From Nonlabens dokdonensis DSW-6 (GTDB taxonomy: Bacteria; Bacteroidota; Bacteroidia; Flavobacteriales; Flavobacteriaceae): a stretch of DNA of 64,000 nt. The position numbers and the translations under genes were made by a program. Within the stretch, counting starts at the first letter, position 1, and the number at the start of each line of letters is the position of its first letter. Shown here one piece after another: positions 1,991 to 59,951 of this stretch. The notes under the pieces were generated by a model. That model had not been told where the DNA came from. It made no database searches and saw only the letters and a program-made list of their open reading frames with translations. The stretch covers positions 2,853,501 to 2,917,500 of the forward strand of contig NC_020156.1 in the NCBI RefSeq assembly GCF_000332115.1, in the 5' to 3' direction.

Positions 1991-2007
1991 CCGCTTTCGC
2001 GAAAGCG
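1991..2007. repeat. Palindromic repeat copy 1 (CGCTTTCGCGAAAGCG)
   Basis: Exact core in the gap between the PIG-L gene and the DUF1206 gene. The left arm is extended to CCGC, the right arm reads GCGAGA. Confidence 0.95.
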
Positions 2008-2042
2008 AGAATACGAAAAACTTAAATATTTTCAAGCTAATT

Positions 2043-2819
2043 TTACTTAATAGGAATATTACGGTGCTTACCGCTTATAATTAAGTAGAGGCCGTAACAA
2101 GTGAGTCCAGAAGCTACTATACCCATAATAACAGCCCCATATTGTACACTCATAAATTGAAATGCAGCATCTGCTCCTTTGGGTAAGTTTTTAAGGCCAT
2201 AATAAAGTGAGCGGTACATAATGTATGAGAAAACTCCAAAAACGATCCCGCGACTAAATCTTCCTACACGTCCTAGAAGCATCAAGTATTTGTATTGCAA
2301 ATCAGTTAGATTATCTTTGTGCATCATCTTATCCATCATAGAAGAAAAAGAAATCCACCATTCATTAATTGCACTTACGGCTAGACCTGATGCGATAATA
2401 AACACAATAATTTTGCCCCATATTGTTTGTAGTAAAATGACTTTCCAGCCCGAATCTCCAGAATCATTAGGCATTCCAAACAGTAATTTCAAACAAGTGA
2501 AAAGAAGTAAACAATAACCAAGACCGTTAATTAAATAGGCAGCCCTACGATAAAAAGGTTTTTCAGTAGAACCGTCATAATCTTGCTTATTAAATGTGAG
2601 GTAAAAGCGAGAAAAAATATAACCAGCTAGTCCTACACTCATTGCAAATAGCAACACTCTGCCAAAGGTCAACTCAGATATCCATTCCAATACATCATCT
2701 CCACCCTTAAGAGCATATTGTAACTGGAAAGCAGTTATGAGTGCCATAATCCCCATGAGGCCAAAGACAACACCTTTAGTGGCGATGCCTATACGACTGT
2801 ATCTTCTGTAATTTTTCAA
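2043..2819 (-). CDS. DUF1206 domain membrane protein
   Basis: This 258-residue protein is strongly hydrophobic with about six membrane segments arranged as three pairs. The pairs repeat a pattern seen as RYSRIGIATKGVVFGLMGIMAL near the start and GRVGRFSRGIVFGVFSYIMY near residue 185, which is the repeated motif of DUF1206. It lies in the inner membrane by prediction and its function is not known. It follows the serine hydrolase gene on the same strand after a 64-base gap, so they may be cotranscribed. No clear terminator is visible downstream. Confidence 0.85.
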   Translation of the reverse strand: MKNYRRYSRIGIATKGVVFGLMGIMALITAFQLQYALKGGDDVLEWISELTFGRVLLFAMSVGLAGYIFSRFYLTFNKQDYDGSTEKPFYRRAAYLINGLGYCLLLFTCLKLLFGMPNDSGDSGWKVILLQTIWGKIIVFIIASGLAVSAINEWWISFSSMMDKMMHKDNLTDLQYKYLMLLGRVGRFSRGIVFGVFSYIMYRSLYYGLKNLPKGADAAFQFMSVQYGAVIMGIVASGLTCYGLYLIISGKHRNIPIK

Positions 2820-2883
2820 TCTAAGTCTTTAAAAAACCAAATATAAAAAGGAGCAAGAAGAGCAAAGTATAATTATCAAAACT

Positions 2884-3987: not shown

Positions 3988-4076
3988 GATTGATTTTTAG
4001 ATTACAAGAATAATCATTTGACCATAAATAAATGTAAAAGTTTAAAGAGTACTAACCAACTACGTTATCGATTTCG

Positions 4077-4084: not shown

Positions 4085-4109
4085 CAAATCTTTAAATGAG
4101 AATATCGCA

Positions 4110-7100
4110 ATGCAAGATCAAACACCATATGTTCCAGTAAATAAAGTAAGAATAGTAACGGCTGCCAGTCTTTTTGACGGTCACGATGCTGCTATTAATA
4201 TCATGCGTCGTATCATTCAATCGACCGGTTGTGAAGTGATTCACTTAGGACACGATAGAAGTGTAGAAGAAGTGGTAAATACCGCTATTCAGGAAGATGC
4301 AAATGGTATTGCCATGACTTCTTATCAAGGTGGTCACAATGAGTACTTTAAGTACATGCGTGATTTATTAGTAGAAAAAGGCGCAGGACACATCAAGATT
4401 TTTGGTGGTGGAGGTGGAGTGATTCTACCATCAGAGATTCAAGAATTGATGGATTATGGAATCACACGCATCTATTCACCAGACGATGGTCGTGAGATGG
4501 GATTGCAAGGAATGATTAATGACTTAGTGAAGCAGTGTGATGTTCCTGTTCCCGCTTTCGCGAAAGCGGTAAAGAAACAAGAAACAAGAAACAAGAAACA
4601 AGATGAAGTTTCAAGAGAATTAGTTTCTGAAAATCTAAAAGAAAAACACGTTCCATCCATAGCTCGGTTAATATCGTTGGCAGAAAATAGACATGAAGAG
4701 TTCGACGATCTTTTTTCCCCTTTAGGGAAAATGTCCGCGGGACAAAAGGGGCTTGCACCAGTTCTAGGAATTACAGGAACCGGTGGAGCTGGAAAGTCAT
4801 CACTTGTAGATGAATTAATACGTAGGTTTTTAATCGATTTCCCAGAGAAAAACATTGGAATTATTTCTGTTGATCCATCAAAACGTAAAACTGGTGGAGC
4901 ATTACTAGGCGATAGAATACGCATGAATGCGATTAATAACGATCGCGTTTATATGAGATCGCTAGCTACGAGACAATCTAATTTAGCCTTATCAAAGCAC
5001 GTTCAAGAAGCGGTAGATGTTCTAAAAGCTGCAGACTATGATTTAATCATTTTAGAAACTAGTGGAATAGGCCAGAGCGATACTGAAATCTTAGAACACA
5101 GTGATGTGTCTTTATATGTAATGACACCAGAATTTGGTGCAGCCACACAATTAGAGAAAATTGACATGCTTGATTTTGCAGATGTAGTGGCAATCAACAA
5201 ATTTGATAAACGTGGTTCACTAGATGCATTACGCGATGTAAAAAAACAATACCAGCGCAATCATAACTTATGGGAAGCAGATCCTGCAACGCTACCAGTT
5301 TATGGAACCATAGCAAGCCAATTCAACGATCCAGGAATGAATGCTCTGTATGAAGCGCTAATGGCTGAGGTAACTAAGAAAACGGGAGTTGACCTGAGTT
5401 CTAAAAACGAGCTCAATAAAACACAGAGCGAAAAGATATTTGTGATTCCGCCATCGAGAACTCGTTACCTAAGCGAAATTGCCGAAAGTAACAGAGCTTA
5501 TGACAACACTGCAGCAGCGCAATCTACAGTAGCTCAAAAACTATACGGTGTCTATCAAACCATCAATACCTTAATTGATCAAAATGAAAATGCCAGTTCG
5601 AGCGACAGTCGAGAACGATTTATCACCGAAAAAGGATTAAATGAAGACTACATCTTATCTCAAACACAAGCTGACGATGCAGACTTTATGAATCTACTGA
5701 TTGCTCAGTTTAACAAATCACTTAAAGACCTCGATCCCTACAACTGGGAAATCATCACCACTTGGGATGATAAAGTAAATAAGTACAAGCAGCCTATTTA
5801 CGAATTCCAAGTACGTGACAAAGTCATTAAAATTGAAACGCATACCGAGTCACTTTCTCATAAGATGATTCCTAAAGTAGCGCTGCCTAAGTATAGCGCT
5901 TGGGGCGATATTTTAAAATGGTGTCTACAAGAAAATGTACCAGGAGAATTCCCGTATACCGCAGGATTATATCCGTTTAAAAGAACAGGTGAAGATCCTA
6001 CCAGAATGTTCGCTGGTGAAGGTGGACCAGAACGTACTAACAAGCGTTTCCACTATGTAAGTCTAGGTATGCCTGCAAAACGTTTGAGTACCGCATTTGA
6101 TAGTGTCACTCTTTACGGTAATGATCCAGGATTGCGACCAGATATTTATGGTAAAATCGGAAATGCTGGAGTTAGCATTTGCTGTCTAGATGATGCAAAG
6201 AAATTGTATTCTGGATTTGATTTGTCGCATGCCATGACATCGGTTTCTATGACTATTAATGGTCCAGCGCCTATGCTATTAGGGTTCTTTATGAATGCTG
6301 CGATAGACCAGAACTGTGAAAGATTCATTACAGAAAACGGACTAGGCGATAAAGTAGAGGCAAAGCTCAAAGAAGTTTATGACGATAATAAGGTAGAACG
6401 TCCATCTTATTTAAACGCTCAAGGCGAAAAGGTATATTCTAAAAATGGTCAAGTAGATGTAACTAAACTTCCGGAAGGTAATGATGGTTTAGGTTTAATG
6501 CTTCTTGGTTTAACAGGAGATCAAATCCTCGATCCAGCAGATTATGCCAAAATCAAACAAGAAACTCTTGCGCAAGTACGCGGAACCGTTCAAGCAGATA
6601 TACTCAAAGAAGACCAAGCACAAAACACCTGTATTTTCTCAACTGAATTTGCATTGCGTTTAATGGGTGATGTACAACAGTATTTTATTGAAGAAAAAGT
6701 GCGTAACTTCTATAGTGTATCCATCTCAGGATATCACATTGCAGAGGCTGGAGCAAATCCGATTACGCAATTGGCTTTCACACTGGCAAACGGATTTACT
6801 TATGTAGAATACTACTTAAGTCGTGGGATGGATATCAATAAATTTGGTCCTAACTTGAGTTTCTTCTTCTCCAATGGTATCGATCCAGAATACTCTGTGA
6901 TAGGTCGTGTGGCTAGGAAGATTTGGGCCAAAGCGATGAAGAACAAATACGGAGCCAACTCTCGTGCACAAATGCTGAAATACCACATTCAGACCAGTGG
7001 CCGTTCACTACACGCACAAGAAATAGATTTTAACGATATACGTACGACCTTGCAAGCGCTTTATGCGATCAATGATAACTGTAACTCATTACACACAAAT

Positions 7101-7679
7101 GCTTATGATGAGGCAATCACCACGCCTACAGAAGAGTCAGTAAGACGTGCGATGGCAATACAGCTGATTATCAATAAAGAGTTAGGTCTTGCCAAAAACG
7201 AGAATCCTATCCAAGGAGCGTTTATCATTGAAGAGTTGACAGACCTTGTAGAAACTGCCGTTTTAGAAGAGTTTGACCGCATCACAGAACGTGGTGGTGT
7301 CCTCGGAGCGATGGAAACCATGTATCAGCGTAGTAAGATTCAAGAAGAATCGATGCACTATGAGATGTTGAAGCATACTGGCGAGTTCCCAATAATTGGA
7401 GTAAATACCTTCTTGAGTTCAAAAGGTAGCCCGACGGTTTTACCAGCTGAGGTAATCCGTGCAACAGAAGAAGAAAAACAAGCTCAAATAGCAACTAAGG
7501 ATAATTTACATTCCGCTTTCGCGAAAGCGCAACAAGAACAATTATCTCAAATCCAAAAAGCAGCAGTTGAACAAGGAAATATCTTTGAGCACTTAATGGA
7601 AGCTACTAAGATTTGTACGTTAGGTCAAATTACTGAAGCATTGTTTGAAGTAGGTGGGCAGTATAGACGTAATATGTAA
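4110..7679 (+). CDS. icmF: Fused isobutyryl-CoA mutase (IcmF): B12 domain, G-protein chaperone, mutase
   Basis: The 1189-residue protein has the IcmF domain order. Residues 5-145 are the cobalamin-binding domain, with DGH at 24-26 giving the cobalt-ligand histidine and a GGGGG loop near 95. Residues about 175-470 are the MeaB-like GTPase chaperone, with P-loop GTGGAGKSS near 223 and NKFDK near 363. From about 560 onwards is the mutase barrel, with the segment [15 protein letters not shown] typical of IcmF rather than methylmalonyl-CoA mutase. It interconverts isobutyryl-CoA and butyryl-CoA and related branched and linear acyl-CoAs using adenosylcobalamin in the cytoplasm. Three linkers carry repeat-derived insertions (residues 149-164, about 494-503, 1135-1140), which help explain a length above the usual roughly 1100. 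The gene appears monocistronic. Confidence 0.95.
4552..4569. repeat. Palindromic repeat copy 2, inside icmF
   Basis: Full 18-base palindrome CCGCTTTCGCGAAAGCGG encoding PAFAKA at residues 149-154, in the linker between the cobalamin and GTPase domains. Confidence 0.95.
4574..4601 (+). repeat. Four tandem copies of the 7-mer GAAACAA inside icmF
   Basis: Four exact head-to-tail 7-base units follow the palindrome by four bases and encode the Lys/Gln-rich stretch [10 protein letters not shown]. Seven is not a multiple of three, so gain or loss of one unit would shift the frame. Confidence 0.93.
5590..5616 (+). repeat. 25-base dispersed repeat inside icmF (copy 1)
   Basis: ATGCCAGTTCGAGCGACAGT followed by CGAGAA matches 8180-8205 with a single difference. 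In icmF it encodes ASSSDSRE at about residues 495-502, in the helical linker before the mutase domain. Confidence 0.85.
7513..7529. repeat. Palindromic repeat copy 3, near the icmF C-terminus
   Basis: Exact core encoding SAFAKA at residues 1135-1140, in a charged segment after the mutase barrel. Confidence 0.95.
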
Positions 7680-10954: not shown

Positions 10955-10972
10955 ACGCTTTCGCGAAAGCGT
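10955..10972. repeat. Palindromic repeat copy 4 (ACGCTTTCGCGAAAGCGT)
   Basis: Exact core between the first and second type A genes; the outer bases also pair, A with T. Confidence 0.95.
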
Positions 10973-14045: not shown

Positions 14046-14061
14046 CGCTTTCGCGAAAGCG
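14045..14061. repeat. Palindromic repeat copy 5
   Basis: Exact core abutting the T-tract of the preceding terminator. Confidence 0.95.
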
Positions 14062-16697: not shown

Positions 16698-16715
16698 CCG
16701 CTTTCTCGAAAGCGG
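16698..16715. repeat. Palindromic repeat, variant copy (CCGCTTTCTCGAAAGCGG)
   Basis: One base differs from the full palindrome: the central CGCG is CTCG. This is the only imperfect copy I found. Confidence 0.85.
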
Positions 16716-17945: not shown

Positions 17946-20900
17946 CTAGTACCTCATTAAATCAATTATATACCATGAAGCACCATCGCTTTGAATGGTT
18001 ATACTGCGCACGCCACCAGCATTTGTATTAAGTCCGTAAGTCGAGAAATTGCTTCCGCCTGGCTCTGTAAAATCGTTACCGAGAGCGGTAAGTGTAATGT
18101 TATTGCTACCGGTAGCCATTACTATTTTATAAACTCTTCCCGTATTGGTCGTATTTGCATTAGGAATAGAAACCGAACCAGATACGATAACCGTGTAATC
18201 ATTATCTGCAACGGTACCGCTTGCCATATTACGGATGTTCATAGAAACGCTACCATTTACATCTATGGTACTGGTAGTCGTCGTAGTGTTAATTCCAACA
18301 GTTTGACTAGAAGTAGATTGAATTATATTACCGTTTACCGACCATGGATCGTTTACAGTTACCCAACTAGTATTTCCACTACCATCGGTTTGCAAAAACT
18401 CATTAGCGTTACCATTTGTATTTGGCAACGTATACTGATTACCATTATTTCCTAATTCTATGGCTCCTAGGACAGAAAGTGGCGCGGCGTCGTCTAAATC
18501 TATAGCCACTTTGTTGACAGCACCTTGTTTGAAAAGAAATGCGTTATCTGTTGGATCATATTGTAAATCAAAAGTACTACCAGGAGATTCCGTAAGTATG
18601 GTTCTAGTCACATTAGTACCAGAATTAGAAGCGTACATCGTTAGAAAATCGTCTGGAGTGGTTGTAGTGTTATCAAGAATGATGCGCTCGTTAGTTCTCA
18701 AAAAGAGGTCATCACCAGGAGTTCTCAATCTAATTTGAGTCGCAAGAGTTTCATCCCAAAATCCAATATCTGCATTTTCCCAAGTGGTCCAAGAGGTTGT
18801 GCCGCTTCCATCGGTTTGTAATATTTCATTAGTGTTACCATTGGTGTTAGGCAACGTATATTGATTACCGTTATTTCCTAATTCTATGGCTCCTAGGACA
18901 GAAAGTGGCGCGGCGTCGTCTAAATCTATAGCCACTTTGTTGACAGCACCTTGTTTAAAAAGAAATGCGTTATCTGTTGGATCATATTGTAAATCAAAAG
19001 TACTACCAGGAGATTCCGTAAGTATGGTTCTAGTTACATTAGTACCAGTATTAGAAGTGTACATCGTGAGAAAATCGTCTGGAGTGGTTGTAGTGTTATC
19101 AAGAATGATGCGCTCGTTAGTTCTCAAAAAGAGGTCATCACCAGGAGTTCTCAATCTAATTTGAGTTGCAAGAGTTTCATCCCAAAATCCAATATCTGCA
19201 TTTTCCCAAGTGGTCCAAGAAGTTGTACCGCTTCCATCTGTTTGTAATATTTCATTTGTGTTACCATTTGTATTAGGCAGCGTATACTGATTACCATTAT
19301 TTCCTAATTCTATGGCTCCTAGGACAGAAAGTGGCGCAGCGCCATCTAGATCTATAGCCACTTTGTTGACAGCACCTTGTTTAAAAAGAAATGCATTATC
19401 TGTAGGATCATATTGTAAGTCAAAAGTACTACCAGGAGATTCCGTAAGTATGGTTCTAGTCACATTAGTACCAGAATTAGAAGCGTACATCGTTAGAAAA
19501 TCGTCTGGAGTGGTTGTAGTGTTATCAAGAATGATGCGCTCGTTTGTTCTCAAAAAGAGGTCATCACCAGGAGTTCTTAATCTAATTTGAGCTGCCAGTG
19601 TCTCGTCCCAAAATCCAATATCTGCATTTTCCCAAGTGGTCCAAGAGGTTGTGCCGCTTCCATCGGTTTGTAATATTTCATTAGTGTTACCATTTGTATT
19701 GGGCAACGTATACTGATTACCATTATTTCCTAATTCTATGGCTCCTAGGACAGAAAGTGGCGCGGCGCCATCTAGATCTATAGCCACTTTGTTGACAGCA
19801 CCTTGTTTAAAAAGAAATGCGTTATCTGTAGGATCATATTGTAAGTCAAAAGTACTACCAGGAGATTCCGTAAGTATGGTTCTAGTCACATTAGTACCAG
19901 TATTAGAAGCGTACATCGTTAGAAAATCGTCTGGAGTGGTTGTAGTGTTATCAAGAATGATGCGCTCGTTAGTTCTCAAAAAGAGATCATCACCAGGAGT
20001 TCTCAATCTAATTTGAGTTGCAAGAGCTTCATCCCAAAATCCAATATCTGCATTTTCCCAAGTGGTCCAAGAGGTTGTGCCGCTTCCATCGGTTTGTAAT
20101 ATTTCATTAGTGTTACCATTTGTACTAGGCAACGTATATTGATTACCGTTATTTCCTAATTCTATGGCTCCTAGGACAGAAAGTGGCGCGGCGCCATCAA
20201 GATCTATAGCCACTTTGTTGACAGCACCTTGTTTAAAAAGAAATGCGTTATCTGTGGGATCATATTGTAAATCAAAAGTACTACCAGGAGATTCCGTAAG
20301 TATGGTTCTAGTCACATTAGTACCAGAATTAGAAGCGTACATCGTTAGAAAATCGTCTGGAGTAGTAGTAGTGTTATCAAGAATGATGCGCTCGTTAGTT
20401 CTCAAAAAGAGGTCGTCACCAGGAGTTCTCAATCTAATTTGAGTTGCAAGAGCTTCATCCCAAAATCCAATATCTGCATTTTCCCAAGTGGTCCAAGAGG
20501 TTGTGCCGCTTCCATCGGTTTGTAATATTTCATTAGTGTTACCATTTGTATTAGGCAACGTATACTGATTACCATTATTTCCTAATTCTATGGCTCCTAG
20601 GACAGAAAGTGGCGCTGCGTCGTCTAGATCTATAGCCACTTTGTTGACAGCACCTTGTTTAAAAAGAAATGCGTTATCTGTGGGATCATATTGTAAGTCA
20701 AAAGTACTACCAGGAGATTCCGTAAGTATGGTTCTCGTCACATTAGTACCAGTATTAGAAGCGTACATCGTTAGAAAATCGTCTGGAGTAGTAGTAGTGT
20801 TATCTAGAATGATGCGCTCGTTAGTTCTAAAATAAAGATCACTTCCTAAATTAATAGGTCGTATTCTACCAGAATTATCCACATATACATCGCTTATGTT

Positions 20901-21200
20901 CATTGGGTTCAATACATTCATCCATCCATTTCCGTGATCATAAAAATAGAAACCGCGATCATAACCGACGATGTTTGTAGATAAGAATAATAGCATACCA
21001 TCTTGATCTGCAGTTACGTTAATAGGAAATGCTGTTACTCTAGGGATGAGTAATCCATCAGGCGTCGTTGAAGCACTTGCCTGAATATCTAAAGTTGATT
21101 TTGGGTCGTCTGTATTTATTCCTACTTGTGCTTTTAAATTATTGATTGAGGCTATAAAAATAAAGAGTATTAAGAGGCTTTTATGTGGACAATATTTCAT
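17946..21200 (-). CDS. VGINT-type secreted protein built of six 142-residue tandem repeats
   Basis: The 1084-residue product has a signal peptide ending at about residue 24 (LKAQ), then VGINTDDPKSTLDIQ. From about residue 118 to 950 it consists of nearly six copies of a 142-residue unit (FLRTNERIILDN ... LQTDGSGTTSW ... FWDEALATQIRLRTPGDDL) that differ by only a few residues. The C-terminus, from IDVNGSVSMN to DLMRY, is a unique beta-rich domain of about 110 residues, perhaps a cap. No T9SS sorting tail is evident. The repeats look like stacked beta-structure, so an elongated stalk or fibre at the cell surface is plausible but unproven. The gene is divergent from the EEP-family gene. Confidence 0.78.
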   Translation of the reverse strand: MKYCPHKSLLILFIFIASINNLKAQVGINTDDPKSTLDIQASASTTPDGLLIPRVTAFPINVTADQDGMLLFLSTNIVGYDRGFYFYDHGNGWMNVLNPMNISDVYVDNSGRIRPINLGSDLYFRTNERIILDNTTTTPDDFLTMYASNTGTNVTRTILTESPGSTFDLQYDPTDNAFLFKQGAVNKVAIDLDDAAPLSVLGAIELGNNGNQYTLPNTNGNTNEILQTDGSGTTSWTTWENADIGFWDEALATQIRLRTPGDDLFLRTNERIILDNTTTTPDDFLTMYASNSGTNVTRTILTESPGSTFDLQYDPTDNAFLFKQGAVNKVAIDLDGAAPLSVLGAIELGNNGNQYTLPSTNGNTNEILQTDGSGTTSWTTWENADIGFWDEALATQIRLRTPGDDLFLRTNERIILDNTTTTPDDFLTMYASNTGTNVTRTILTESPGSTFDLQYDPTDNAFLFKQGAVNKVAIDLDGAAPLSVLGAIELGNNGNQYTLPNTNGNTNEILQTDGSGTTSWTTWENADIGFWDETLAAQIRLRTPGDDLFLRTNERIILDNTTTTPDDFLTMYASNSGTNVTRTILTESPGSTFDLQYDPTDNAFLFKQGAVNKVAIDLDGAAPLSVLGAIELGNNGNQYTLPNTNGNTNEILQTDGSGTTSWTTWENADIGFWDETLATQIRLRTPGDDLFLRTNERIILDNTTTTPDDFLTMYTSNTGTNVTRTILTESPGSTFDLQYDPTDNAFLFKQGAVNKVAIDLDDAAPLSVLGAIELGNNGNQYTLPNTNGNTNEILQTDGSGTTSWTTWENADIGFWDETLATQIRLRTPGDDLFLRTNERIILDNTTTTPDDFLTMYASNSGTNVTRTILTESPGSTFDLQYDPTDNAFLFKQGAVNKVAIDLDDAAPLSVLGAIELGNNGNQYTLPNTNGNANEFLQTDGSGNTSWVTVNDPWSVNGNIIQSTSSQTVGINTTTTTSTIDVNGSVSMNIRNMASGTVADNDYTVIVSGSVSIPNANTTNTGRVYKIVMATGSNNITLTALGNDFTEPGGSNFSTYGLNTNAGGVRSITIQSDGASWYIIDLMRY
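18345..20850 (-). repeat. Tandem array, period 426 bp, about 5.9 copies
   Basis: Equivalent positions recur at 18460, 18886, 19312, 19738, 20164 and 20590, an exact spacing of 426 bases (142 codons). Copies are nearly identical in DNA. Reading in coding order, the residue in SN(T/S)GTN alternates T,S,T,S,T,S through all six copies. Confidence 0.95.
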
Positions 21201-21510: not shown

Positions 21511-21530
21511 TCCGCTTTCGCGAAAGCGGA
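21511..21530. repeat. Palindromic repeat copy 7 (extended to 20 bases)
   Basis: TCCGCTTTCGCGAAAGCGGA, a perfect 20-base palindrome in the divergent region. Confidence 0.95.
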
Positions 21531-29291: not shown

Positions 29292-29307
29292 CGCTTTCGC
29301 GAAAGCG
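29292..29307. repeat. Palindromic repeat copy 8
   Basis: Exact core between the M28 peptidase start and the terminator of the first MscS gene. Confidence 0.95.
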
Positions 29308-31299: not shown

Positions 31300-31315
31300 C
31301 GCTTTCGCGAAAGCG
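31300..31315. repeat. Palindromic repeat copy 9
   Basis: Exact core between the MscS start and the terminator of the fad operon. Confidence 0.95.
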
Positions 31316-34858: not shown

Positions 34859-37267
34859 TTAGTTTCTTAACGGTTTACCTTTTTGCAACATATGTTGTAG
34901 GCGTTCTAATGTTTTGCGTTCTCCTGTTAAGCTTAAAAACGCTTCACGTTCCAGGTCTAGCAAGTATTGTTCCGATACTAGAGTAGGAGAACTTAAATCT
35001 CCACCAGCCATTACATATGCTAGTTTGTTAGCGATTTTCTTATCGTGTTCAGATATATACTTTCCAGCTTCCATTTGGTCTGTTCCTACTAAAAACATAC
35101 CTAACGCTTGCTTTCCTAATACTTTGATATCCTTACGCATTGGAGCTTGTGTGTAACCTTTATCTGCTAATAGTCGTGCTTGCGCTTTCGCGAAAGCGAT
35201 ACGTCTATTATCATTTACCACAACATGATCAGTTCCTTTTCTAAGGATACCTAGATCAAATGCTTCATAAGCTGAAGTAGCCACTTTTGCCATTCCTACT
35301 GTCAAGAAATATTCCTGAAGTCTGTTTAATTCTACGTCGTTTTTCTCGAAAGTATCACTAGCTCTCAGTGCCATTTCTTTAGAGCCACCACCACCAGGAA
35401 TGACTCCTACGCCAAACTCTACTAAACCAATATAAGTCTCTGCACTTGCTACAGCAACATCAGAGTGCATGGTCATTTCACATCCACCACCTAATGCCAT
35501 TTGATGAGGCGCTACTATCGTAGGAATGCTGCTATAACGCAACCTCATTACGGTGTTTTGGAATTGCTTAATTGCCATGTTGAGCTCGTCATATTCTTGC
35601 TCTACAGCCATCATGAATATCATCCCGATGTTTGCTCCTACAGAAAAGTTAGCTCCATTGTTTGCCACAACTAATCCGTCGAAACGATCTTCCGCAATAT
35701 CGATGGCCTTATTTAATCCTGCTAAAACGTCTCCACCGATAGAATTCATTTTGGATGTAAATTCAACATTTAAGATTCCATCGCCTATATCATGAACTGT
35801 AACTCCAGAATTTTTAAATACTGGTGCATTTGCTCGTAAATTGTCAAGAATAATAAATCCATCCTGACCTGGTTTCTTCACATAGTCCTTATCTGGAATA
35901 GAATAGTAGTATGTCGCTCCATCTTTAACTGTATAGAAGGATTCAAATCCTTTTTCTAACATTTCTGTGATCCAAGGTGCAGGTTCTTTTCCGATTGCTT
36001 CCATAAGTTCGATACCTTTTGCAACACCTACGGCATCCCAAACTTGGTATGGTCCATGTTCCCAGCCAAATCCTGCACTCATCGCGTCGTCTATGCGATA
36101 AAGCTCGTCAGATATTTCTGGAATTCTATGTTGTACATAAGCAAACAAAGAAGCAAATGATTTTCTATAAAAATCACCAGCTTTATCCTTTCCTTTAATC
36201 AAAACAGGAAAACGATCTGCTACGTTATCTATGGACTTTGTCAATTCAAGCGTCGCAAACTTTGCGCGAGGCTGATTCTCGTATTCCATAGAATCTAGAT
36301 TCAAGGCTAAAATCTCTTTCTTTCCTGCTTTATCTACATTCTTTTTATAGAATCCTTGACCAGTTTTTGATCCCAACCATTTATTCTCCATCATCGTACT
36401 GATGAAATCTGGTAGTTTAAATGTGTCTTTGTGCTCATCTTGTGGGCAGTTTTCATAGACACCATTTGCTACATGAACTAATGTATCTAATCCAACAACA
36501 TCTACTGTTCTAAAGGTTGCAGACTTTGCTCGACCTATAACTGGTCCGGTTAATTTATCTACTTCTGAAACTGTAAGCCCCATTTCTTTAACCGTGTGGA
36601 ATAAACTTTGTATGGAAAAAATCCCAATTCTATTACCTATAAATGCCGGTGTGTCTTTTGCAAGAACAGATGTCTTACCTAAAAACTTCTCACCGTATTC
36701 CATTAAGAAATCTGTCACGGCAGGATCGCAATTAGGACCTGGCACCACCTCAAATAATTTTAAGTATCGTGGTGGATTGAAAAAGTGTGTTACTGCAAAG
36801 TGTTTCTGGAAGTCCTCACTACGTCCCTCATTCATAAAAGAAATAGGAATACCAGATGTATTTGAAGTAATCAAAGTGCCAGGTTTGCGGTGCTTTTCAA
36901 TTTGTTCAAAAACAGACTTTTTAATGTCTAGTCTTTCAACAACCACTTCTATGATCCAGTCGGTATCCTTTATTTTGGACAAGTCATCATCAAGATTTCC
37001 AGTAGAAATCCTATTTGCAAATGATTTATCATAAAGAGGAGCTGGCTTACTTTTTATAGCTGCCGCAAGGTTGTCATTCACCATGCGATTACGCACTACT
37101 TTATCTTCTAGGGTAAGACCTTTAGCTTTTTCTTTATCGCTAAGTTCTCTTGGGACAATATCCAAAAGAAGAACTTCACAACCTATATTAGCAAAATGAC
37201 AAGCGATACCACTTCCCATAATCCCAGAACCTATTACGGTTACATGTTTTATTCTACGTTTTCCCAT
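34859..37267 (-). CDS. fadN: 3-hydroxyacyl-CoA dehydrogenase / enoyl-CoA hydratase fusion (FadN-like)
   Basis: The 802-residue fusion begins with the NAD-binding motif VTVIGSGIMGSGIACHFAN (residues 9-27) and the hydroxyacyl-CoA dehydrogenase domains. The crotonase domain follows at about 510-660 with GGGCEMTMHSDVAVASAETYIG, in part, and VIPGGGGSKEMAL. The domain order, dehydrogenase before hydratase, is that of Bacillus FadN and opposite to FadB/FadJ of E. coli. It carries out hydration of enoyl-CoA and oxidation to 3-ketoacyl-CoA. A palindromic repeat encodes IAFAKAQ near residue 691-697. It follows the marR gene by one base. Confidence 0.94.
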   Translation of the reverse strand: MGKRRIKHVTVIGSGIMGSGIACHFANIGCEVLLLDIVPRELSDKEKAKGLTLEDKVVRNRMVNDNLAAAIKSKPAPLYDKSFANRISTGNLDDDLSKIKDTDWIIEVVVERLDIKKSVFEQIEKHRKPGTLITSNTSGIPISFMNEGRSEDFQKHFAVTHFFNPPRYLKLFEVVPGPNCDPAVTDFLMEYGEKFLGKTSVLAKDTPAFIGNRIGIFSIQSLFHTVKEMGLTVSEVDKLTGPVIGRAKSATFRTVDVVGLDTLVHVANGVYENCPQDEHKDTFKLPDFISTMMENKWLGSKTGQGFYKKNVDKAGKKEILALNLDSMEYENQPRAKFATLELTKSIDNVADRFPVLIKGKDKAGDFYRKSFASLFAYVQHRIPEISDELYRIDDAMSAGFGWEHGPYQVWDAVGVAKGIELMEAIGKEPAPWITEMLEKGFESFYTVKDGATYYYSIPDKDYVKKPGQDGFIILDNLRANAPVFKNSGVTVHDIGDGILNVEFTSKMNSIGGDVLAGLNKAIDIAEDRFDGLVVANNGANFSVGANIGMIFMMAVEQEYDELNMAIKQFQNTVMRLRYSSIPTIVAPHQMALGGGCEMTMHSDVAVASAETYIGLVEFGVGVIPGGGGSKEMALRASDTFEKNDVELNRLQEYFLTVGMAKVATSAYEAFDLGILRKGTDHVVVNDNRRIAFAKAQARLLADKGYTQAPMRKDIKVLGKQALGMFLVGTDQMEAGKYISEHDKKIANKLAYVMAGGDLSSPTLVSEQYLLDLEREAFLSLTGERKTLERLQHMLQKGKPLRN
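35183..35198. repeat. Palindromic repeat copy 10, inside fadN
   Basis: Exact core read as AFAKA in RRIAFAKAQARLL, in the C-terminal helical part of the protein. Confidence 0.95.
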
Positions 37268-37824: not shown

Positions 37825-37840
37825 CGCTTTCGCGAAAGCG
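37825..37840. repeat. Palindromic repeat copy 11
   Basis: Exact core, right arm GCGGAA, between the fad promoter region and the terminator of the type B gene cluster. Confidence 0.95.
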
Positions 37841-40850: not shown

Positions 40851-42899
40851 TTATTGTAAATATACATAACCAGCTACTGGCTTTGTGTTTGGTTCATTCA
40901 ATTCTATGACATAGAAATAGGTACCTGTAGGCAATCTACTTCCCGTACTAAACAAGCCAGTATTAGAAGTTCCATTCCAGCTACCAGTTTCATTATTTCC
41001 TTCCCATATTTTCTGTCCGTACCTGCTAAATATATGCATTTTATGTTTATCATATATGTTATAAAGTCCAGAAACGATAAACGTATCATTTAATCCATCA
41101 CCGTCAGGTGTTAAAACGTTAAATACCTTTATCGGACAGTTTTCTATGCATATTTCAAAAGAAAATATTTCAAAACAGTTTTCATTTGAAACCCTAAAAA
41201 ATAAAACTTGACAACGATCTTGATTTATGTAACTCGATGGGTTGGTAATTCTATTTACATCTAATATAGCATCTTCCTCTTGCTCATAGAAATTTACCAT
41301 TTGATTGCCTGAGGTAGATGCAGCAGACGATATAAGTGTTAAATCAAATGTTGCTTGATCAAACCCTTTTTCACATACTTCTAATTTTTCAGGAAAACTA
41401 TTTACCATGACTGCATCAAATACAATTATGGTTGTGGTTGTAGTAAAAATTTGATTTAACGTTTCTACTGTTGCAGTGATGGTATAAGTTCCTGGTGCTG
41501 TGAATAAGTGACTCGGTTCTAACTCACTTGAAATATTATTAGCTCCAGAATTAGGATCTCCGAAATCCCAATTTATAGAAACTATACTAGCCGATGTATT
41601 TATATTAAAATCCTGCTCTTCACCAAAGCAGTGATCTATTGCTATAATTTCTCCATTTAACAAAAAGGACTGAACAAAAATGGGAAGTCCATACCAAGCA
41701 GTAGCGTTTTGTGTAAGTGGGAAGGAATTAAAGGTATAGTTTGCCGCAACACCAGCGTTATCTGGATTGTTTATAACACTCAATTCACCTTGTTGAAATC
41801 GGGAATGATAAATCTTGTTATCAAGCCCCAATTGTAAAGCACCTCTAAAAGGAGTAATATTATCTTGATGTACTAGTGTTGCACTGTTAGCAACATTTAC
41901 GGCTGTTAAATCGTATTGTACAATTTCTCCTCTTATTAAATCAAATACTTGAGATGTAGAGGCGTTCATATAATCTACTTCGGCATACAAGTACTGTCCG
42001 TTTCCAGAAAACTCTACACCATAGATAGAGCCTCCATCTTGTCTCGTGAGCAAAGGTTGTGGGTTTGATACTACTCCATTACTATTGTCAAAATCATATA
42101 AATAAAGCTCGCCTCCATTGGCATAAGCTATACTACGTGCGGTTAAAACATCCGTTATTCCTGTAAATTCTGCTGTGGTGTTGTTGGAAAAATGTGCCGC
42201 GACAAGTTTATTACCTCGAGCATTAACTTTAATATAACCTCTCATTGCCGCAACATCGACATTTGTAATAGGTGTGGTGACTAACTCGATAAAAGGAGCA
42301 ACTGTAGAAGTGACTGGCGTCATGGATAATCCATTTGCAGTCAACTCATAAGAGAAAAATCGGTCTTCAAATTGTGAGATGATCCAAAATCCATCTCCAG
42401 ACGCATTAGAAATCGCTGTTAGCTTTTCTGAGGTAATGGGTAACAGGTTAATATTTTTATTAGAAATATCTACATCACCAGTTCCACCGTTGAGTGTCAT
42501 GTCAACAATAGAATAATGCAGGCCTTCAGTATCCCGATAAACTAAATCATCAGTGTCCACCGTAAAGATGTAAAAAATGTTTGGGTTGCCTGGTAACGGG
42601 ACTATAATTGCGCTACTTGTGCTTGAAGAGTTTCCTTTCAAACCAGTTCCATTAGGCATGATCACATGATTTGCATCATAAACTAAGGATCCATCGGTAT
42701 AAAATAATAGATTTCCAAACTGGTCAGATATAGTTGCGCAACCTTCTCCGGTAACTAATTGTCCGTTATCTATTGCAACTGCTGTTCCAGAACTGAAATC
42801 AATACCTGCATTGATCCCAAAGTACCAAAAGGATGATTCTAATTGCGCTTTCGCGAAAGCGGAACTAATAAATATTAAAAGATATAAAAAGTACTTCAT
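40851..42899 (-). CDS. PKD-containing surface protein with T9SS type B sorting domain, shorter paralogue
   Basis: The 682-residue product has the propeller-like domain (FWYFGINAGIDFSSG at residues 24-38), a single PKD domain (INWDFGDPNSG near 445) and a type B tail (FNVLTPDGDGLNDTFIVSGL to AGYVYLQ). It has a single CEKG..FDL module rather than the several of its neighbours, which makes it shorter. The signal peptide ends SSAFAKAQ, and AFAKA is encoded by a copy of the genomic palindrome, so the repeat supplies the signal peptidase site. Same operon and role as its neighbours. Confidence 0.9.
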   Translation of the reverse strand: MKYFLYLLIFISSAFAKAQLESSFWYFGINAGIDFSSGTAVAIDNGQLVTGEGCATISDQFGNLLFYTDGSLVYDANHVIMPNGTGLKGNSSSTSSAIIVPLPGNPNIFYIFTVDTDDLVYRDTEGLHYSIVDMTLNGGTGDVDISNKNINLLPITSEKLTAISNASGDGFWIISQFEDRFFSYELTANGLSMTPVTSTVAPFIELVTTPITNVDVAAMRGYIKVNARGNKLVAAHFSNNTTAEFTGITDVLTARSIAYANGGELYLYDFDNSNGVVSNPQPLLTRQDGGSIYGVEFSGNGQYLYAEVDYMNASTSQVFDLIRGEIVQYDLTAVNVANSATLVHQDNITPFRGALQLGLDNKIYHSRFQQGELSVINNPDNAGVAANYTFNSFPLTQNATAWYGLPIFVQSFLLNGEIIAIDHCFGEEQDFNINTSASIVSINWDFGDPNSGANNISSELEPSHLFTAPGTYTITATVETLNQIFTTTTTIIVFDAVMVNSFPEKLEVCEKGFDQATFDLTLISSAASTSGNQMVNFYEQEEDAILDVNRITNPSSYINQDRCQVLFFRVSNENCFEIFSFEICIENCPIKVFNVLTPDGDGLNDTFIVSGLYNIYDKHKMHIFSRYGQKIWEGNNETGSWNGTSNTGLFSTGSRLPTGTYFYVIELNEPNTKPVAGYVYLQ
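42846..42861. repeat. Palindromic repeat copy 12, encoding a signal peptidase site
   Basis: Exact core read as SAFAKA at residues 13-18 of the type B protein, directly before the Gln that should begin the mature chain. Confidence 0.95.
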
Positions 42900-47217: not shown

Positions 47218-48114
47218 TTAATTTTGGTTAGTTAATTCAATAAATTGGTCTTCAAGACTCTGCTTTTTATGTAAAAGCTTGCTTAGAATTATGCCACTTT
47301 CAAAAGCATCTTTATTGATTTGAGCATTATCTACATCTTCATAAAGTTTCACTTCCAGACCATCATCATGCTTTGTTATAGAGCCGGCATAAGGCTTGTC
47401 TTTGAGAAATTCATGTAACGCATCTCTATTTGCAGCATCTATAAAAATGGAGCCATGATTTCTATTCATTTCTCCTACTGGACCAGAATATAGCATTTTC
47501 CCATTTCTAAGAACCACAACATCCGTACACACCTTTTCTACTTCATCAAGTAAATGAGACGCAAGTAAAATAGTAGTTCCATTAGATGCAATTTGTTGAA
47601 TAATATCTCTTATCTGTCGTATTCCTTTAGGATCAAGTCCATTGGTCGGTTCGTCTAGAATTAAAATTTCGGGATCATTAAGCAATGCGCTGGCAATCGC
47701 AAGCCTTTGTTTCATCCCGAGTGAATAAGTTTTAAAAGGAGAATGCTTTCGCGAAAGCAAGTCTACAACAGTCAGTTTTTCTTCAATTTTTGAAGGATCA
47801 ATATTTTTAATCTTACAAACCAATTCTAGATTTTGTACCGCACTCATACTAGGATAAAAATTAGGTCGCTCGATAATTGCACCTATTCTTTTAAGCGCAT
47901 CGTGATTTGAAGTATTGCCTTCAAACCAAGTATAATCACCACTAGTGGGATTCACGACATTGAGTACCATGCCCAGTGTGGTAGATTTACCACTACCATT
48001 AGGACCTAGAATACCATAAACATGGCCTTTCTTGATTTGAAATGAAATACGATCTACCGCAGTAAGCGCGCCGTAATTTTTATGAAGTTGATTAATTTCA
48101 AGGATGGTTTCCAT
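47218..48114 (-). CDS. ABC transporter ATP-binding protein
   Basis: The 298-residue ATPase has Walker A GPNGSGKST near residue 40, the signature YSLGMKQRL near 134, Walker B ILILDEPTNGLDP near 155, and the switch His in LLASHLLDE near 190. The last 80 residues are the extra domain seen in ABC-2 exporters of the CcmA/bacitracin type. A copy of the genomic palindrome encodes LSRKH just before the signature motif, in a frame different from all other coding copies. It is divergent from the kinase-like gene, 59 bases away. Confidence 0.93.
   Translation of the reverse strand: METILEINQLHKNYGALTAVDRISFQIKKGHVYGILGPNGSGKSTTLGMVLNVVNPTSGDYTWFEGNTSNHDALKRIGAIIERPNFYPSMSAVQNLELVCKIKNIDPSKIEEKLTVVDLLSRKHSPFKTYSLGMKQRLAIASALLNDPEILILDEPTNGLDPKGIRQIRDIIQQIASNGTTILLASHLLDEVEKVCTDVVVLRNGKMLYSGPVGEMNRNHGSIFIDAANRDALHEFLKDKPYAGSITKHDDGLEVKLYEDVDNAQINKDAFESGIILSKLLHKKQSLEDQFIELTNQN
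47744..47759. repeat. Palindromic repeat copy 13, inside the ABC ATPase gene
   Basis: TGCTTTCGCGAAAGCA: the 14-base core is exact, with T and A as the pairing outer bases instead of C and G. It is read as LSRKH. Confidence 0.92.
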
Positions 48115-49348: not shown

Positions 49349-50407
49349 CTATTTTTTCTCCTCGCGATTAAAGTAAACTAAGTAGTAATACATTTGTTTT
49401 TCTTCATCCCAGCCTTTTTCAATGTATTTCTCTGCACTATCAGGATTTGTAAAGTCCATTTTTATTTGCACATGCGTGTCTAGATTGATCACATTTTTAA
49501 TTCCTTTACGAGCGGCACTAACGGCCGTGTTAGAAATAGGGAAGGAGCTCACATCTTCTATGGAGTGCTTAGGTCCTTTTTCTATTTTATAATTCCTAAA
49601 TTCTGGAATTAAATCTGGATTATCGAGTGTTTCATTTAAAAAGGCAGTCTCTTCAAAATTATCGTTTTTAGCAAAATGATTCACCGCACGATTCATAAAC
49701 ATGACCTCTTCCTTTTTATCTTCGGCAGGTAGTACCACGTCTTTTGCAAAGTCCTGACAAAACTTCAAATACTTCTTTGTAAAGAAATTTTCATCTTCAA
49801 ATACATCCACTCCTAGAAAACTATCCAGCCAGTACTTAGCATCATAACGGTTAGAATCTACAGAAAGAATCTTGTATCCGGCTTCTTCTTCTACATTAAA
49901 TATAATCGCGCCTTTGTCCAATTTGTTTAAATTGACACCTTGCTGCAAGATCATTTTTAAGTCCGTTTCTCCTTCTTCAAATTGCAAGAATTCTTGCTTG
50001 ATCTCGCTCTTAAAAATCCCAATCGCATCCGTTTTATTATTGTCTACCATTACGTTGTCAAAATAACAGATGTATACCTCACCACTTCGTATGTGTGGAT
50101 GCTCTGATTGCTCGTACAAGTGTTTTGCCATCTTCTTGCTGTTTTCAAGTAAAGAAGCTGGTGTGGAGAATACCGCTTTCGCGAAAGCGTACATATCATG
50201 AAACTCTAAGTCATCTTCATGAAAGAAACTATAATAAGCCTCTTCCTTAGAGCGGAATGGTTTTAGGAAATACTCCTTCAATAGGGAATGCATCTCGTCG
50301 TCCAGCGCAGTACTGTTACTAGACGTGAGTAGTAGTTCACCCTTATTTTTGTTACCTACACGATGTATGGCAAGATTTTCAATTCTGGTATTAAATAGAT
50401 TGATCAT
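49349..50407 (-). CDS. Nucleoid-associated protein of the NdpA/YejK family
   Basis: The 352-residue protein matches NdpA-type proteins by its opening (IENLAIHRVGNKNKGELLLTSS, in part), a central segment GAIIFNVEEEAGYKILSVDSN and the overall charge pattern. The family binds DNA on the nucleoid; its exact role is poorly defined. A palindromic repeat is read as YAFAKAVF near residue 73-80. It is preceded by the pRiA4b ORF3-like gene with three bases between, so they share an mRNA. Confidence 0.82.
   Translation of the reverse strand: MINLFNTRIENLAIHRVGNKNKGELLLTSSNSTALDDEMHSLLKEYFLKPFRSKEEAYYSFFHEDDLEFHDMYAFAKAVFSTPASLLENSKKMAKHLYEQSEHPHIRSGEVYICYFDNVMVDNNKTDAIGIFKSEIKQEFLQFEEGETDLKMILQQGVNLNKLDKGAIIFNVEEEAGYKILSVDSNRYDAKYWLDSFLGVDVFEDENFFTKKYLKFCQDFAKDVVLPAEDKKEEVMFMNRAVNHFAKNDNFEETAFLNETLDNPDLIPEFRNYKIEKGPKHSIEDVSSFPISNTAVSAARKGIKNVINLDTHVQIKMDFTNPDSAEKYIEKGWDEEKQMYYYLVYFNREEKK
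50173..50190. repeat. Palindromic repeat copy 14, inside the NdpA-like gene
   Basis: Exact core read as YAFAKAV. Confidence 0.95.
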
Positions 50408-54570: not shown

Positions 54571-54585
54571 TTTCATGTTTAAATC

Positions 54586-54603
54586 CCGCTTTCGCGAAAG
54601 CGG
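54586..54603. repeat. Palindromic repeat copy 15 (full 18 bases)
   Basis: CCGCTTTCGCGAAAGCGG, just downstream of the GTTCAA microsatellite. Confidence 0.95.
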
Positions 54604-57425: not shown

Positions 57426-57441
57426 CGCTTTCGCGAAAGCG
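57426..57441. repeat. Palindromic repeat copy 16
   Basis: Exact core in the divergent region before mtaB. It is followed at 57464-57492 by ACTGTAAACT repeated either side of GCCGCTGCG. Confidence 0.95.
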
Positions 57442-57505: not shown

Positions 57506-57529
57506 CAGCCTTAAAAATCAGTAAGAAAC

Positions 57530-58858
57530 ATGCTTGTAGAGACAGCTACAAAATCCGTCGCATTTTATACTTTAGGTTGTAAACTTAATTTCAGTGAAAC
57601 CAGTACCATCGCGCGTTCTTTTAAGCAAGAAGGTTTTGATAAGGTAGACTTTGAAGAAAAGGCAGATATTTATGTCATCAATACCTGCAGCGTTACTGAA
57701 AATGCAGATAAACGTTTTAAATCTATAGTTAAGAAAGCGCAGAAATCAAATGATGATGCTTTTGTAATTGCAGTAGGTTGTTATGCGCAGTTGAAGCCAG
57801 AAGAACTGGCCGCTGTTGATGGAGTAGATCTGGTTTTAGGAGCTACAGAAAAGTTTAAAATCACCGATTATCTTAATCAGCTGTCCAAAGAAGAACCTAC
57901 GCAGGTACATTCTTGCGAGATCAATGAGGCCGATTTTTATGTAGGATCATATTCCATAGGAGATCGTACCAGAGCTTTTCTTAAAGTTCAAGACGGTTGT
58001 GATTACAAATGTACCTATTGCACCATACCGCTAGCACGTGGGATTTCTCGTAGTGATACTTTAGAAAACGTGATGGATAATGCTCGTAAGATAAGTGAGC
58101 AAGGCATCAAAGAAATCGTTCTTACAGGAGTGAATATAGGTGATTATGGAAAGGGCGAGTTTGGTAACAAAAGACATGAGCATACTTTTCTAGATTTAGT
58201 ACATGCGCTGGATACCGTAAAAGGTATTGAACGTTTGCGTATTTCTTCTATCGAGCCCAATTTATTGAAGAATGAAACTATAGAATTTGTCGCAGGAGCA
58301 AATGCTTTTGTGCCACATTTTCATATTCCGTTACAGGTAGGTAATAACGAGTTGCTCGGTAAAATGAAACGTCGTTACAATCGAGAATTGTATAGCGATC
58401 GTGTGAGTAAGATCAAAGAAGTGATGCCAGATTGCTGCATAGGTGTGGATGTGATTGTAGGTTTCCCAGGTGAGACTGACGATCATTTTCTGGACACCTA
58501 TAATTATTTGAGTTATCTAAATATCTCTTACCTACATGTTTTTACTTATTCTGAGCGTGAGAATACGCCAGCGGCTACTATGGAAGGAGCTGTTCCTTTA
58601 AAAGTACGCAAGAAACGTTCTAAAATGTTACGTGGTTTATCAGTAAAAAAACGCCGTGCATTTTATGAAAGCCAGCTAGGTAAAACTAAAACGGTACTTT
58701 GGGAAGCCGAAAATAAAGAAGGATTTATTCAAGGTTTTACAGAGAATTATGTAAAAGTAAAAACCTATTGGAATCCGCAGTTGGTTAATGTATTACAACA
58801 TGTAAAATTACTTTCTATTGATGAAGATGGATTAGTACGCATAGAAACTGTAGATTAA
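57530..58858 (+). CDS. mtaB: tRNA t6A37 methylthiotransferase MtaB
   Basis: The 442-residue radical-SAM enzyme has the three N-terminal cysteines of the methylthiotransferase domain (TLGCKLN near 18, INTCSVT near 50, GCYAQ near 86), the radical-SAM CxxxCxxC in DGCDYKCTYCTIP near 155-167, and a C-terminal TRAM-like domain. The pattern is MtaB rather than MiaB or RimO. It adds a methylthio group to N6-threonylcarbamoyladenosine at position 37 of ANN-decoding tRNAs. It is followed by porQ on the same strand after 79 bases. Confidence 0.93.
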   Translation: MLVETATKSVAFYTLGCKLNFSETSTIARSFKQEGFDKVDFEEKADIYVINTCSVTENADKRFKSIVKKAQKSNDDAFVIAVGCYAQLKPEELAAVDGVDLVLGATEKFKITDYLNQLSKEEPTQVHSCEINEADFYVGSYSIGDRTRAFLKVQDGCDYKCTYCTIPLARGISRSDTLENVMDNARKISEQGIKEIVLTGVNIGDYGKGEFGNKRHEHTFLDLVHALDTVKGIERLRISSIEPNLLKNETIEFVAGANAFVPHFHIPLQVGNNELLGKMKRRYNRELYSDRVSKIKEVMPDCCIGVDVIVGFPGETDDHFLDTYNYLSYLNISYLHVFTYSERENTPAATMEGAVPLKVRKKRSKMLRGLSVKKRRAFYESQLGKTKTVLWEAENKEGFIQGFTENYVKVKTYWNPQLVNVLQHVKLLSIDEDGLVRIETVD

Positions 58859-58937
58859 TTCTTAAAAACTCTACAACAAGCTAAAAATAAATTAAACTTG
58901 CAATCGTTATCCCATTAGCCGTTTATAAAACCATTGA

Positions 58938-59951
58938 ATGCGTCATTTGTTTCTTCTTATTTTTTTATGTTCCGCTTTCGCGAAAGCGCAAATAGGAGGA
59001 CGATCTACCTACCAATTTCTTAATCTGGTTTCCGGTACAAAGCAAGCGGCTTTGGGCGGTAGAGTTCTTACAGGCGTAGATTATGATCCTACTTCAGGGA
59101 TTTTTAATCCTGCAACGATCAATCCTAAAATGGACAATCAGTTGCAAGTAAATTATGTCAATTATTTAGGCGACGTAAATTATGGTACAGCAAGTTATGC
59201 TTACACTTGGGATAGACATGTGCAAACTTTTCACGCTGGTGTGACCTACCTCAATTATGGAACTTTTGATGGGTTTGATGAGCAAGGAAATTCTACAGGA
59301 GAATTTGGTGGTAATGAGGTTGCCGTTTCTATGGGTTATGCCTACAATATACCATGGTCAGATTTTTATGTAGGAGCAAACTTGAAATTGATATCTTCTA
59401 AGCTGGATATTTATACTTCTTTTGGTGGTGCGGTAGATTTAGGAGTTTTGTATTACAATGAAGATAAAGCAATACGAGCAGCATTGGTGGTGCGTAATTT
59501 AGGAACTCAATTCACGCCTTATAATGAGATTTATGAAGATTTGCCTTTAGAAATTTCGGCAGGATTTTCTAATACTATGAAAAACTTACCTTTAAGACTT
59601 CATGTGACTTTAGAAAACCTGCAGCAATGGGATCTGGCTTTTACAAATGAAGCTAATGCGCAAACTGATCTGGACGGAAATGTGATCGAGGACAAGCCTA
59701 GCTTTTTTAATAATGCTTTGAGACACACGGTTTTTGGACTGGAAATTTTCCCAGAGCAAGTTTTTGAAGTGCGATTGGGTTATAGTTTTAGAAGAGCTGA
59801 GGAATTGCGCATCGATAATACCAGAGCTTTTTCTGGAGTAAGCGCAGGATTCTCTCTTAAGATGAATAAATTAAGATTTAGTTATACGCATGCTCGATAT
59901 ACGCTAGCATCGCACACAAGTCTTTTTGGCGTAAATATAAATTTACAGTAA
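58938..59951 (+). CDS. porQ: Type IX secretion system protein PorQ
   Basis: The 337-residue product is an outer-membrane beta-barrel protein of the PorQ family: GGRSTYQFLNLVSGTKQAALGG, in part, near residue 20-40, then repeated amphipathic strands and a terminal aromatic strand. PorQ works with PorU, PorV and PorZ in the attachment complex that processes T9SS cargo; the six cargo genes in this window should be its clients. The signal peptide ends CSAFAKAQ, with AFAKA encoded by the genomic palindrome. The stop codon directly abuts the cmk start. Confidence 0.92.
   Translation: MRHLFLLIFLCSAFAKAQIGGRSTYQFLNLVSGTKQAALGGRVLTGVDYDPTSGIFNPATINPKMDNQLQVNYVNYLGDVNYGTASYAYTWDRHVQTFHAGVTYLNYGTFDGFDEQGNSTGEFGGNEVAVSMGYAYNIPWSDFYVGANLKLISSKLDIYTSFGGAVDLGVLYYNEDKAIRAALVVRNLGTQFTPYNEIYEDLPLEISAGFSNTMKNLPLRLHVTLENLQQWDLAFTNEANAQTDLDGNVIEDKPSFFNNALRHTVFGLEIFPEQVFEVRLGYSFRRAEELRIDNTRAFSGVSAGFSLKMNKLRFSYTHARYTLASHTSLFGVNINLQ
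58972..58988. repeat. Palindromic repeat copy 17, encoding a signal peptidase site
   Basis: Exact core read as SAFAKA at residues 12-17 of PorQ, just before the Gln that should begin the mature protein. Confidence 0.95.

Follow-up and report, generated by a model that had tools for sequence, protein, structure and literature searches.

Sites of the parS/Noc type are palindromes of 14-16 bp with TTTC and GAAA halves, and Chi is short and not palindromic. DNA uptake sequences, known from Neisseria (DUS) and from Pasteurellaceae (uptake signal sequences, USS), occur in 1471 and 1965 copies per genome, with a steep fall in count as mismatches are allowed and with T-rich flanks, according to the available part of PMC1939737, which also cites Karlin for a significantly even spacing in Haemophilus and Neisseria. 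The available part of PMC2346458 describes uptake sequences as preferring one orientation within reading frames and, among Pasteurellaceae, as leaning toward gene ends. HIP1 of cyanobacteria (GCGATCGC) is a highly iterated palindrome found across a clade, of unsettled function, which the available part of PMC4390886 ties to a pair of orphan methyltransferases with the recognition sequences GATC and CGATCG. Here, we describe a perfect palindrome of 14 bases, GCTTTCGCGAAAGC, iterated along the chromosome of the flavobacterium Nonlabens dokdonensis DSW-6. It came to notice in a stretch of 64,000 nucleotides (contig NC_020156.1, positions 2,853,501 to 2,917,500; hereafter the window), and we tentatively read it as a self-DNA tag, probably one for DNA uptake.

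The window contains 17 exact copies and one single-mismatch copy, spanning positions 1993-58987. This recount agrees with a sequence-only reading of the same stretch made earlier by a model, as does the density (about one copy per 3.6 kb then, one per 3.6-3.8 kb here, and about 1 per 4.3 kb over a larger sample). Its statement that none would be expected by chance also holds: at up to two mismatches the window has 18 matches against a mean of 0.11 and a maximum of 2 in 100 dinucleotide shuffles, and the 85 exact copies present in 464 kb of the genome (the window plus 400 kb) compare with 0.001 expected from a Markov model of order 4 and 0.28 from order 5. Orders 6 and 7 predict 23 and 67 copies in the same 464 kb because they absorb the motif itself. 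The whole genome, a single contig of 3,914,632 bp, holds 857 exact 14-mers against 0 of the reversed control, and 737 exact copies of a longer 16-mer, CGCTTTCGCGAAAGCG. Near-misses are scarce, as described for uptake sequences, with 8 one-mismatch, 1 two-mismatch and 13 three-mismatch forms beside the 85 exact ones; of 86 occurrences of the 10-base TTTCGCGAAA, 85 fall in exact copies and the last in a one-mismatch copy. One exact sequence of 14 bases is thus strongly over-represented in its own genome, a trait of uptake sequences. The wider count that the sequence-only reading had proposed, genome-wide and in relatives against a Markov background, places the motif far above the order 4 and 5 expectations in the 464 kb and finds it dense in few genera. 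Neither a count near the Markov expectation nor an origin of the copies in one known mobile element, both of which were sought, was found.

The copies in the window are listed below; none is assigned a strand, and the strand in brackets is that of the open reading frame (ORF).

1993..2006, exact copy, outside ORFs of at least 150 amino acids (aa)
4554..4567, exact copy, within ORF 4110-7679 (+), read AFAKA
7515..7528, exact copy, within ORF 4110-7679 (+), read AFAKA
10957..10970, exact copy, intergenic
14047..14060, exact copy, intergenic
16700..16713, one-mismatch copy GCTTTCTCGAAAGC, outside ORFs of at least 150 aa
17865..17878, exact copy, intergenic
21514..21527, exact copy, intergenic
29293..29306, exact copy, intergenic
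31301..31314, exact copy, intergenic
35184..35197, exact copy, within ORF 34859-37267 (-), AFAKA frame
37826..37839, exact copy, intergenic
42847..42860, exact copy, close to the 5' end of ORF 40851-42899 (-), AFAKA frame
47745..47758, exact copy, within ORF 47218-48114 (-), LSRK-type frame
50175..50188, exact copy, within ORF 49349-50407 (-), AFAKA frame
54588..54601, exact copy, intergenic
57427..57440, exact copy, intergenic
58974..58987, exact copy, close to the 5' end of ORF 58938-59951 (+), AFAKA frame

The division into 7 genic and 11 intergenic copies made at first sight stands, with 7 copies in ORFs, 9 exact copies in gaps, and the copy at 1993 and the mismatch copy outside ORFs of at least 150 aa. 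Site 1993 was left unclassified by the context script, no gene having been called to its left.

The true core of the element is the 16-mer CGCTTTCGCGAAAGCG with symmetric arms, and so extends beyond the 14 bases first noticed. The base flanking the 14-mer is C on the left or G on the right on 92% of arms over the 85 sites of the 464 kb, which is the unbiased figure; the Nonlabens and Dokdonia sets used for the arms come partly from loci found by scanning for the 16-mer, which inflates the flanking C, and arm counts are not independent because the species are related. In 210 Nonlabens sites, T is found at -4 (0.77), -7 (0.56), -10 (0.70) and -13 (0.59), with C at merely 0.075 over -19 to -4. 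The same pattern is seen in 101 Dokdonia sites, with T lower at -4 (0.46) and higher at -3 (0.80); in 25 sites of a third genus (genome G234) it is faint beyond -7, and the flanking C is kept on 62% of arms. A symmetric extension to 18-20 bases, as first reported, is present in some copies, but a flanking C/G with weakly conserved arms describes the sites better.

The T at every third base of the 5' arm is locked to the core. Its excess is 0.225 for Nonlabens, where 5000 within-arm shuffles reach at most 0.049, and 0.157 for Dokdonia, where as many shuffles reach at most 0.074. Coding copies show the register less strongly than intergenic ones, so that it is no codon effect; we know of no protein with an established three-base register in the arms of its site. 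The two arms vary almost independently of each other: complementarity at position 4 is 0.59 against 0.61 expected for independent arms in Nonlabens and 0.43 against 0.36 in Dokdonia, it stays close to expectation further out, and both arms carry T/A at -4/+4 in 55 of 84 sites, where about 56 would be expected. Small excesses are seen at positions 1 and 2 in Nonlabens (0.86 versus 0.82 and 0.37 versus 0.29), all these complementarity values being descriptive. The total footprint with both arms is about 46-52 bp, and the near independence of the arms favours a protein acting on double-stranded DNA and tells against the formation of a long hairpin or cruciform.

Gene context was assigned with a simple in-house ORF caller rather than an annotation, and 84 of the 85 sites were classified (one without a left gene was dropped): 43 lie in ORFs and 41 in gaps, where copies are about 5 times denser per base. 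Coding copies use all three frames, with a preference for AFAKA (25 of 43) over LSRK-type (13) and RFRES (5), and lean to the first (5') quarter of genes (18 of 43; Kolmogorov-Smirnov p=0.006). Placement ignores transcription direction and the axis from replication origin to terminus. Indeed, intergenic copies occupy 23 tandem, 8 convergent and 10 divergent gaps, near the shares of gap length, and there are 50 copies per 200 kb on the origin side (around parS, 1.526 Mb) and 42 per 200 kb opposite.

Copies are very evenly spaced. Over 864 kb of the genome (22% of it), the 172 gaps between copies have a mean of 4.3 kb and a coefficient of variation (CV) of 0.48 (bootstrap 0.44-0.52); 2 gaps fall below 1 kb and 1 exceeds 10 kb, where about 36 and about 17, respectively, would be expected. 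When copies are placed at random in unchanged coding/intergenic proportions (2000 runs), the CV is 1.00 with a minimum of 0.71; the 82 gaps used for this comparison have 0.44. Another Nonlabens genome (G003) gives 0.66 over 60 gaps against 0.98 for random placement (p=0.0004). The statistics for the own genome leave out one gap of 91 kb (G000:C1:131712-222906, G000 being the own genome; loci L239-L244) that is free of the motif. Three of the five proteins searched there are nonribosomal peptide synthetases (NRPS), which identifies an NRPS cluster; the island also has a penicillin-amidase-family gene, its longest ORF reaches 4935 aa, and it was probably acquired recently.

Conservation was followed in one homologous region (29-45 kb) of 11 Nonlabens genomes, in 378 site-by-genome comparisons aligned across the site, which are not independent because the species are related. 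The core is exact in 256 of them, against about 6% expected if it evolved like its flanks (mean identity 0.78), and even where flank identity falls below 0.70 it is still exact in 26 of 43. The remaining 122 comprise 23 indels, 15 one-mismatch and 31 two-mismatch states and 53 with more changes. The commonest alternative state, GCTTTTGCAAAAGC (26 cases), is two changes away from the motif and synonymous in the AFAKA frame. One genome, G002, has the motif where three relatives carry GCTTTTGCAAAAGC-type sequence, and this copy therefore arose by point mutations; two intergenic sites are absent from the same genome, the surrounding gap being rearranged. Nothing resembling the insertion of a unit was found in the 11-genome comparison, in which copies change by point mutation.

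Among the genomes sampled, the motif is dense in three genera. The 16-mer occurs 180-737 times in each of 23 Nonlabens genomes, 630 times in Dokdonia sinensis (G250) and 153 times in G234, which also has 25 exact 14-mers in 160 kb and is therefore dense too, despite its weaker flanking C. Of 397 genomes sampled across the family, 48 match the 16-mer; outside the three dense genera a genome has 0-13 copies. No palindromic dialect of comparable frequency was found in other genera, in a small sample of 100 kb each from six genomes (G122, G131, G144, G120, G245 and G035).

Mobile DNA carries the motif as well. Among 42 genomes with few copies, 11 supplied 13 stretches for inspection, and 12 of these (L253-L265 except L259; GC content 0.37-0.42) are mutually related at 67-99.9% identity, with recurrent distances of 2446, 933 and 3460 bp between copies; L259 has no such match. 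Because of their spread, the related stretches in these genera are probably elements of conjugative type. Three genomes, G120, G330 and G095, have 11-13 copies each. In IMG/VR, 41 stretches from 30 viral contigs match the 16-mer. In the parts examined, 18 of these contigs (0.36-0.47 GC) contain between 2 and 6 14-mers, and 12 are single-copy, 8 of them at 0.48 GC or above, which may be chance matches. Phage structural genes (portal, head, tape measure, terminase, tail sheath, baseplate) were identified in five of the six viral contigs whose proteins were searched, accompanied in one case by an integrase; the sixth (L149) matched just a family of unknown function. Viral copies are located within genes for a terminase, for a portal protein and for a head protein or protease. 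As a control, the Haemophilus phage HP1 has 17 USS cores in 32.4 kb with a CV of 0.51 (p=0.003), against 0, 0, 0 and 3 for scrambled controls; a temperate phage of a host with uptake sequences therefore behaves like the phages described here.

A self-DNA tag, probably for uptake, is the explanation that we place first, with a confidence a little under an even chance, because the USS of HP1 and the literature on uptake sequences match the motif and the random placement of Chi contrasts with it. We propose that a symmetric, probably dimeric DNA-binding protein would recognise double-stranded CGCTTTCGCGAAAGCG plus its arms and thereby give like DNA a preference in uptake, or in some other form of acceptance, and in the recombination that follows. 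Such biased acceptance would spread exact copies and repair them, and could also set the spacing near the useful fragment size, a few kb; the lack of copies in the 91-kb NRPS island is in line with this reading. The likeness to DUS and USS extends to hundreds of exact copies with even spacing (in the own genome) in few taxa, to a core with weaker T-rich flanks, to the presence of both coding and intergenic copies with a bias within genes, and, for USS, to copies in a temperate phage. The suggestion that this is a selected or maintained motif comparable to HIP1 or uptake signals is accordingly supported by its confinement to few genera, its exact core over diverged flanks, its gain by substitutions and its even spacing in the own genome. 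The likeness to HIP1 lies in high iteration as a palindrome across a clade and an unsettled function; HIP1 is the octamer GCGATCGC, whereas the present element has a different sequence, 14-16 bp with arms, and the dense genomes share no methylase of the two families searched.

Several points weigh against an uptake tag. The perfect palindrome, with 14-16 exact bases and arms on both sides in a three-base T register, departs from DUS and USS, and it is rarer per kb: at 1 per 4.3 kb it falls below the known uptake cases, given commonly cited genome sizes. The families of ComEC and DprA are present in 23 of 23 genomes tested, tagged or not, and therefore do not discriminate. Spacing is less even in Dokdonia sinensis (CV 0.71 over 33 gaps, p=0.025 against a random 0.96), its evenness in G234 is not significant (0.76 over 24 gaps, p=0.13 against a random 0.94), and in 160 kb of Dokdonia exact copies outnumber one-mismatch copies by just 34 to 12. 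In single-gene trees of ParB and AddB, which have weak forks, Nonlabens stands apart from Dokdonia and G234; with the dense genera ungrouped, these trees suggest that gain, loss or transfer of the trait may have happened repeatedly. Uptake sequences are, moreover, not palindromic and less even than compaction sites should be, according to the available part of PMC1939737, and the non-palindromic, oriented character of both known uptake groups, a trait outside the functional definition of such sequences, is not seen in this motif with its symmetric arms. Finally, a chromosome-organising protein would explain the Nonlabens spacing too.

More broadly, we consider it evenly balanced whether Nonlabens, Dokdonia and the third genus share a DNA-binding system that marks the chromosome, mobile elements and phages with a spaced lattice of palindromic self marks of about 46-52 bp, each with an exact core and a T at every third position of both arms, perhaps gained or passed between lineages more than once. 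A system of this kind is not described for Bacteroidota in the literature searched, which comprised open papers, subscription papers and preprints lying outside its scope, and no established uptake sequence was found in it for this phylum. The 16-, 14- and 12-base spellings are absent from this literature, the 10-base TTTCGCGAAA appears in ten papers, on other subjects to judge by their titles, and searches on palindromes in Nonlabens or Dokdonia, on uptake sequences, competence or methylomes, and on highly iterated palindromes gave nothing on the motif. An uptake tag would therefore be the first in Bacteroidota within that literature, and a palindromic one. It could also provide an answer for a family with a measured preference for own DNA: Riemerella columbina, of the same family, prefers its own DNA, and no tag is established for it in the available part of PMC7965970. 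Under either an uptake or an architectural role, the palindrome offers an easy bait for the putative reader protein, a handle for genetics in marine flavobacteria and a metagenome marker for DNA and phages of these hosts.

The main rival, ranked second and in our view unlikely, is the binding site of a chromosome-organising protein (nucleoid, segregation or nucleoid-occlusion) with an anchor every few kb along the chromosome. The perfect palindrome, the symmetric and nearly independent arms and the footprint are those of a dimeric double-strand binder, and the very even spacing in Nonlabens, the indifference to transcription direction, the like density near the origin and opposite it, and the strong conservation of the core all fit such an anchor; the spacing would then directly display a length scale of bacterial chromosome organisation. 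However, phages and mobile elements carry the motif at similar distances, a copy-free stretch of 91 kb is tolerated, neighbours in the ParB tree have just 0-13 copies, and the regularity weakens in Dokdonia and loses significance in G234. Nor is there a Noc-like ParB common to the dense genomes. A single ParB match is found in 6 of 8 Nonlabens tested, in Dokdonia and in G234, and the second match in G014 and G019 is a 616-aa frame present too in genera where the tag is rare. The motif resembles parS/Noc sites in its length and its TTTC/GAAA halves but is hundreds of times commoner and in another register, and a canonical parS is retained in all 8 Nonlabens genomes tested, with 1-2 copies each: the core GTTTCACGTGAAAC lies at G000:C1:1525833 and 1527726 in the own genome, and 7 of the 8 genomes carry it as a pair separated by about 1.9 kb, the eighth carrying it once. 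With no extra ParB common to the dense genomes, an ordinary ParB and a canonical parS, a retargeted ParB/Noc reader was ruled out. The same parS core was found in 1 of 19 other family genomes tested, and parS may differ across much of the family.

A self mark of a defence system, by which modification or protection would spare DNA with the site and phages would carry the motif to survive, appears improbable. It would account for the copies in phages and mobile elements and for the confinement to few genera. However, no member of the N6_N4 or C5 methylase families, to which the search was limited, is common to the dense genomes, the former being absent from G004, G017 and G250 and the latter from G015, G022 and G234, all of them dense, and we know of no modification site with 14 fixed bases and arms. 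For these reasons, the early suggestion of methylation at TCGCGA, which would not explain the fixed bases and arms, is not supported by the two families tested.

Still less probable is a Chi-like site that would act on the AddAB nuclease from both directions, RecA being loaded on a keto-rich arm that carries the three-base register. At about one per 4-5 kb genome-wide, the motif is near the density of Chi in E. coli K-12 (58 in 250 kb), the T at every third base is locked to the core, and a PDDEXK_1 protein of AddB size, presumably AddB from its family and size, is present in 31 of 31 genomes tested. The Chi copies of those 250 kb, however, are spaced at random (CV 1.12, compared with 0.48 for the motif), whereas the motif is even, palindromic and of long footprint. 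AddAB is not supported as the reader, since the AddB-like protein is equally common in tag-free genomes and its tree (22 sequences, 12 partial) does not unite the dense genera. The Nonlabens AddB-like protein (L395-L399) lies on a very long branch, at 1.25 changes per column, relative to other genera.

A mobile or RNA-level element (REP-like palindrome, terminator or RNA hairpin) is scarcely credible: the element is palindromic and 41 of 84 classified copies are intergenic, but a transposon or REP-like origin is ruled out, as the sequence-only reading had judged for a transposon, by homologous sites kept across species, a gain by substitutions and the lack of a Y1 transposase common to dense genomes (the RAYT-type family occurs in 11 of 24 genomes tested, G000 among them, and is absent from the dense G003, G019, G022 and G234), while a terminator, promoter or RNA hairpin is ruled out by the 43 copies in ORFs, the nearly independent arms and the 10 of 41 intergenic copies in divergent gaps, which need no terminator.

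Other iterated sequences were noticed in passing. The 11-mer TTCCGAAGAAA occurs 7 times in G144 (0.19 expected) and 6 times in G120 (0.02 expected), in 100 kb each (L325-L334), and a second 11-mer, ATTTCAGAAAT, occurs 8 times in 100 kb of G120 (0.15 expected). These two genomes carry 0 and 12 copies of the palindrome, respectively, and their repeated 11-mers are possibly other iterated elements. Within the window, a 426-bp unit is repeated in tandem 5.8 times (95% matches) at positions 18382-20832, inside a 1084-aa ORF (17946-21200, minus strand).

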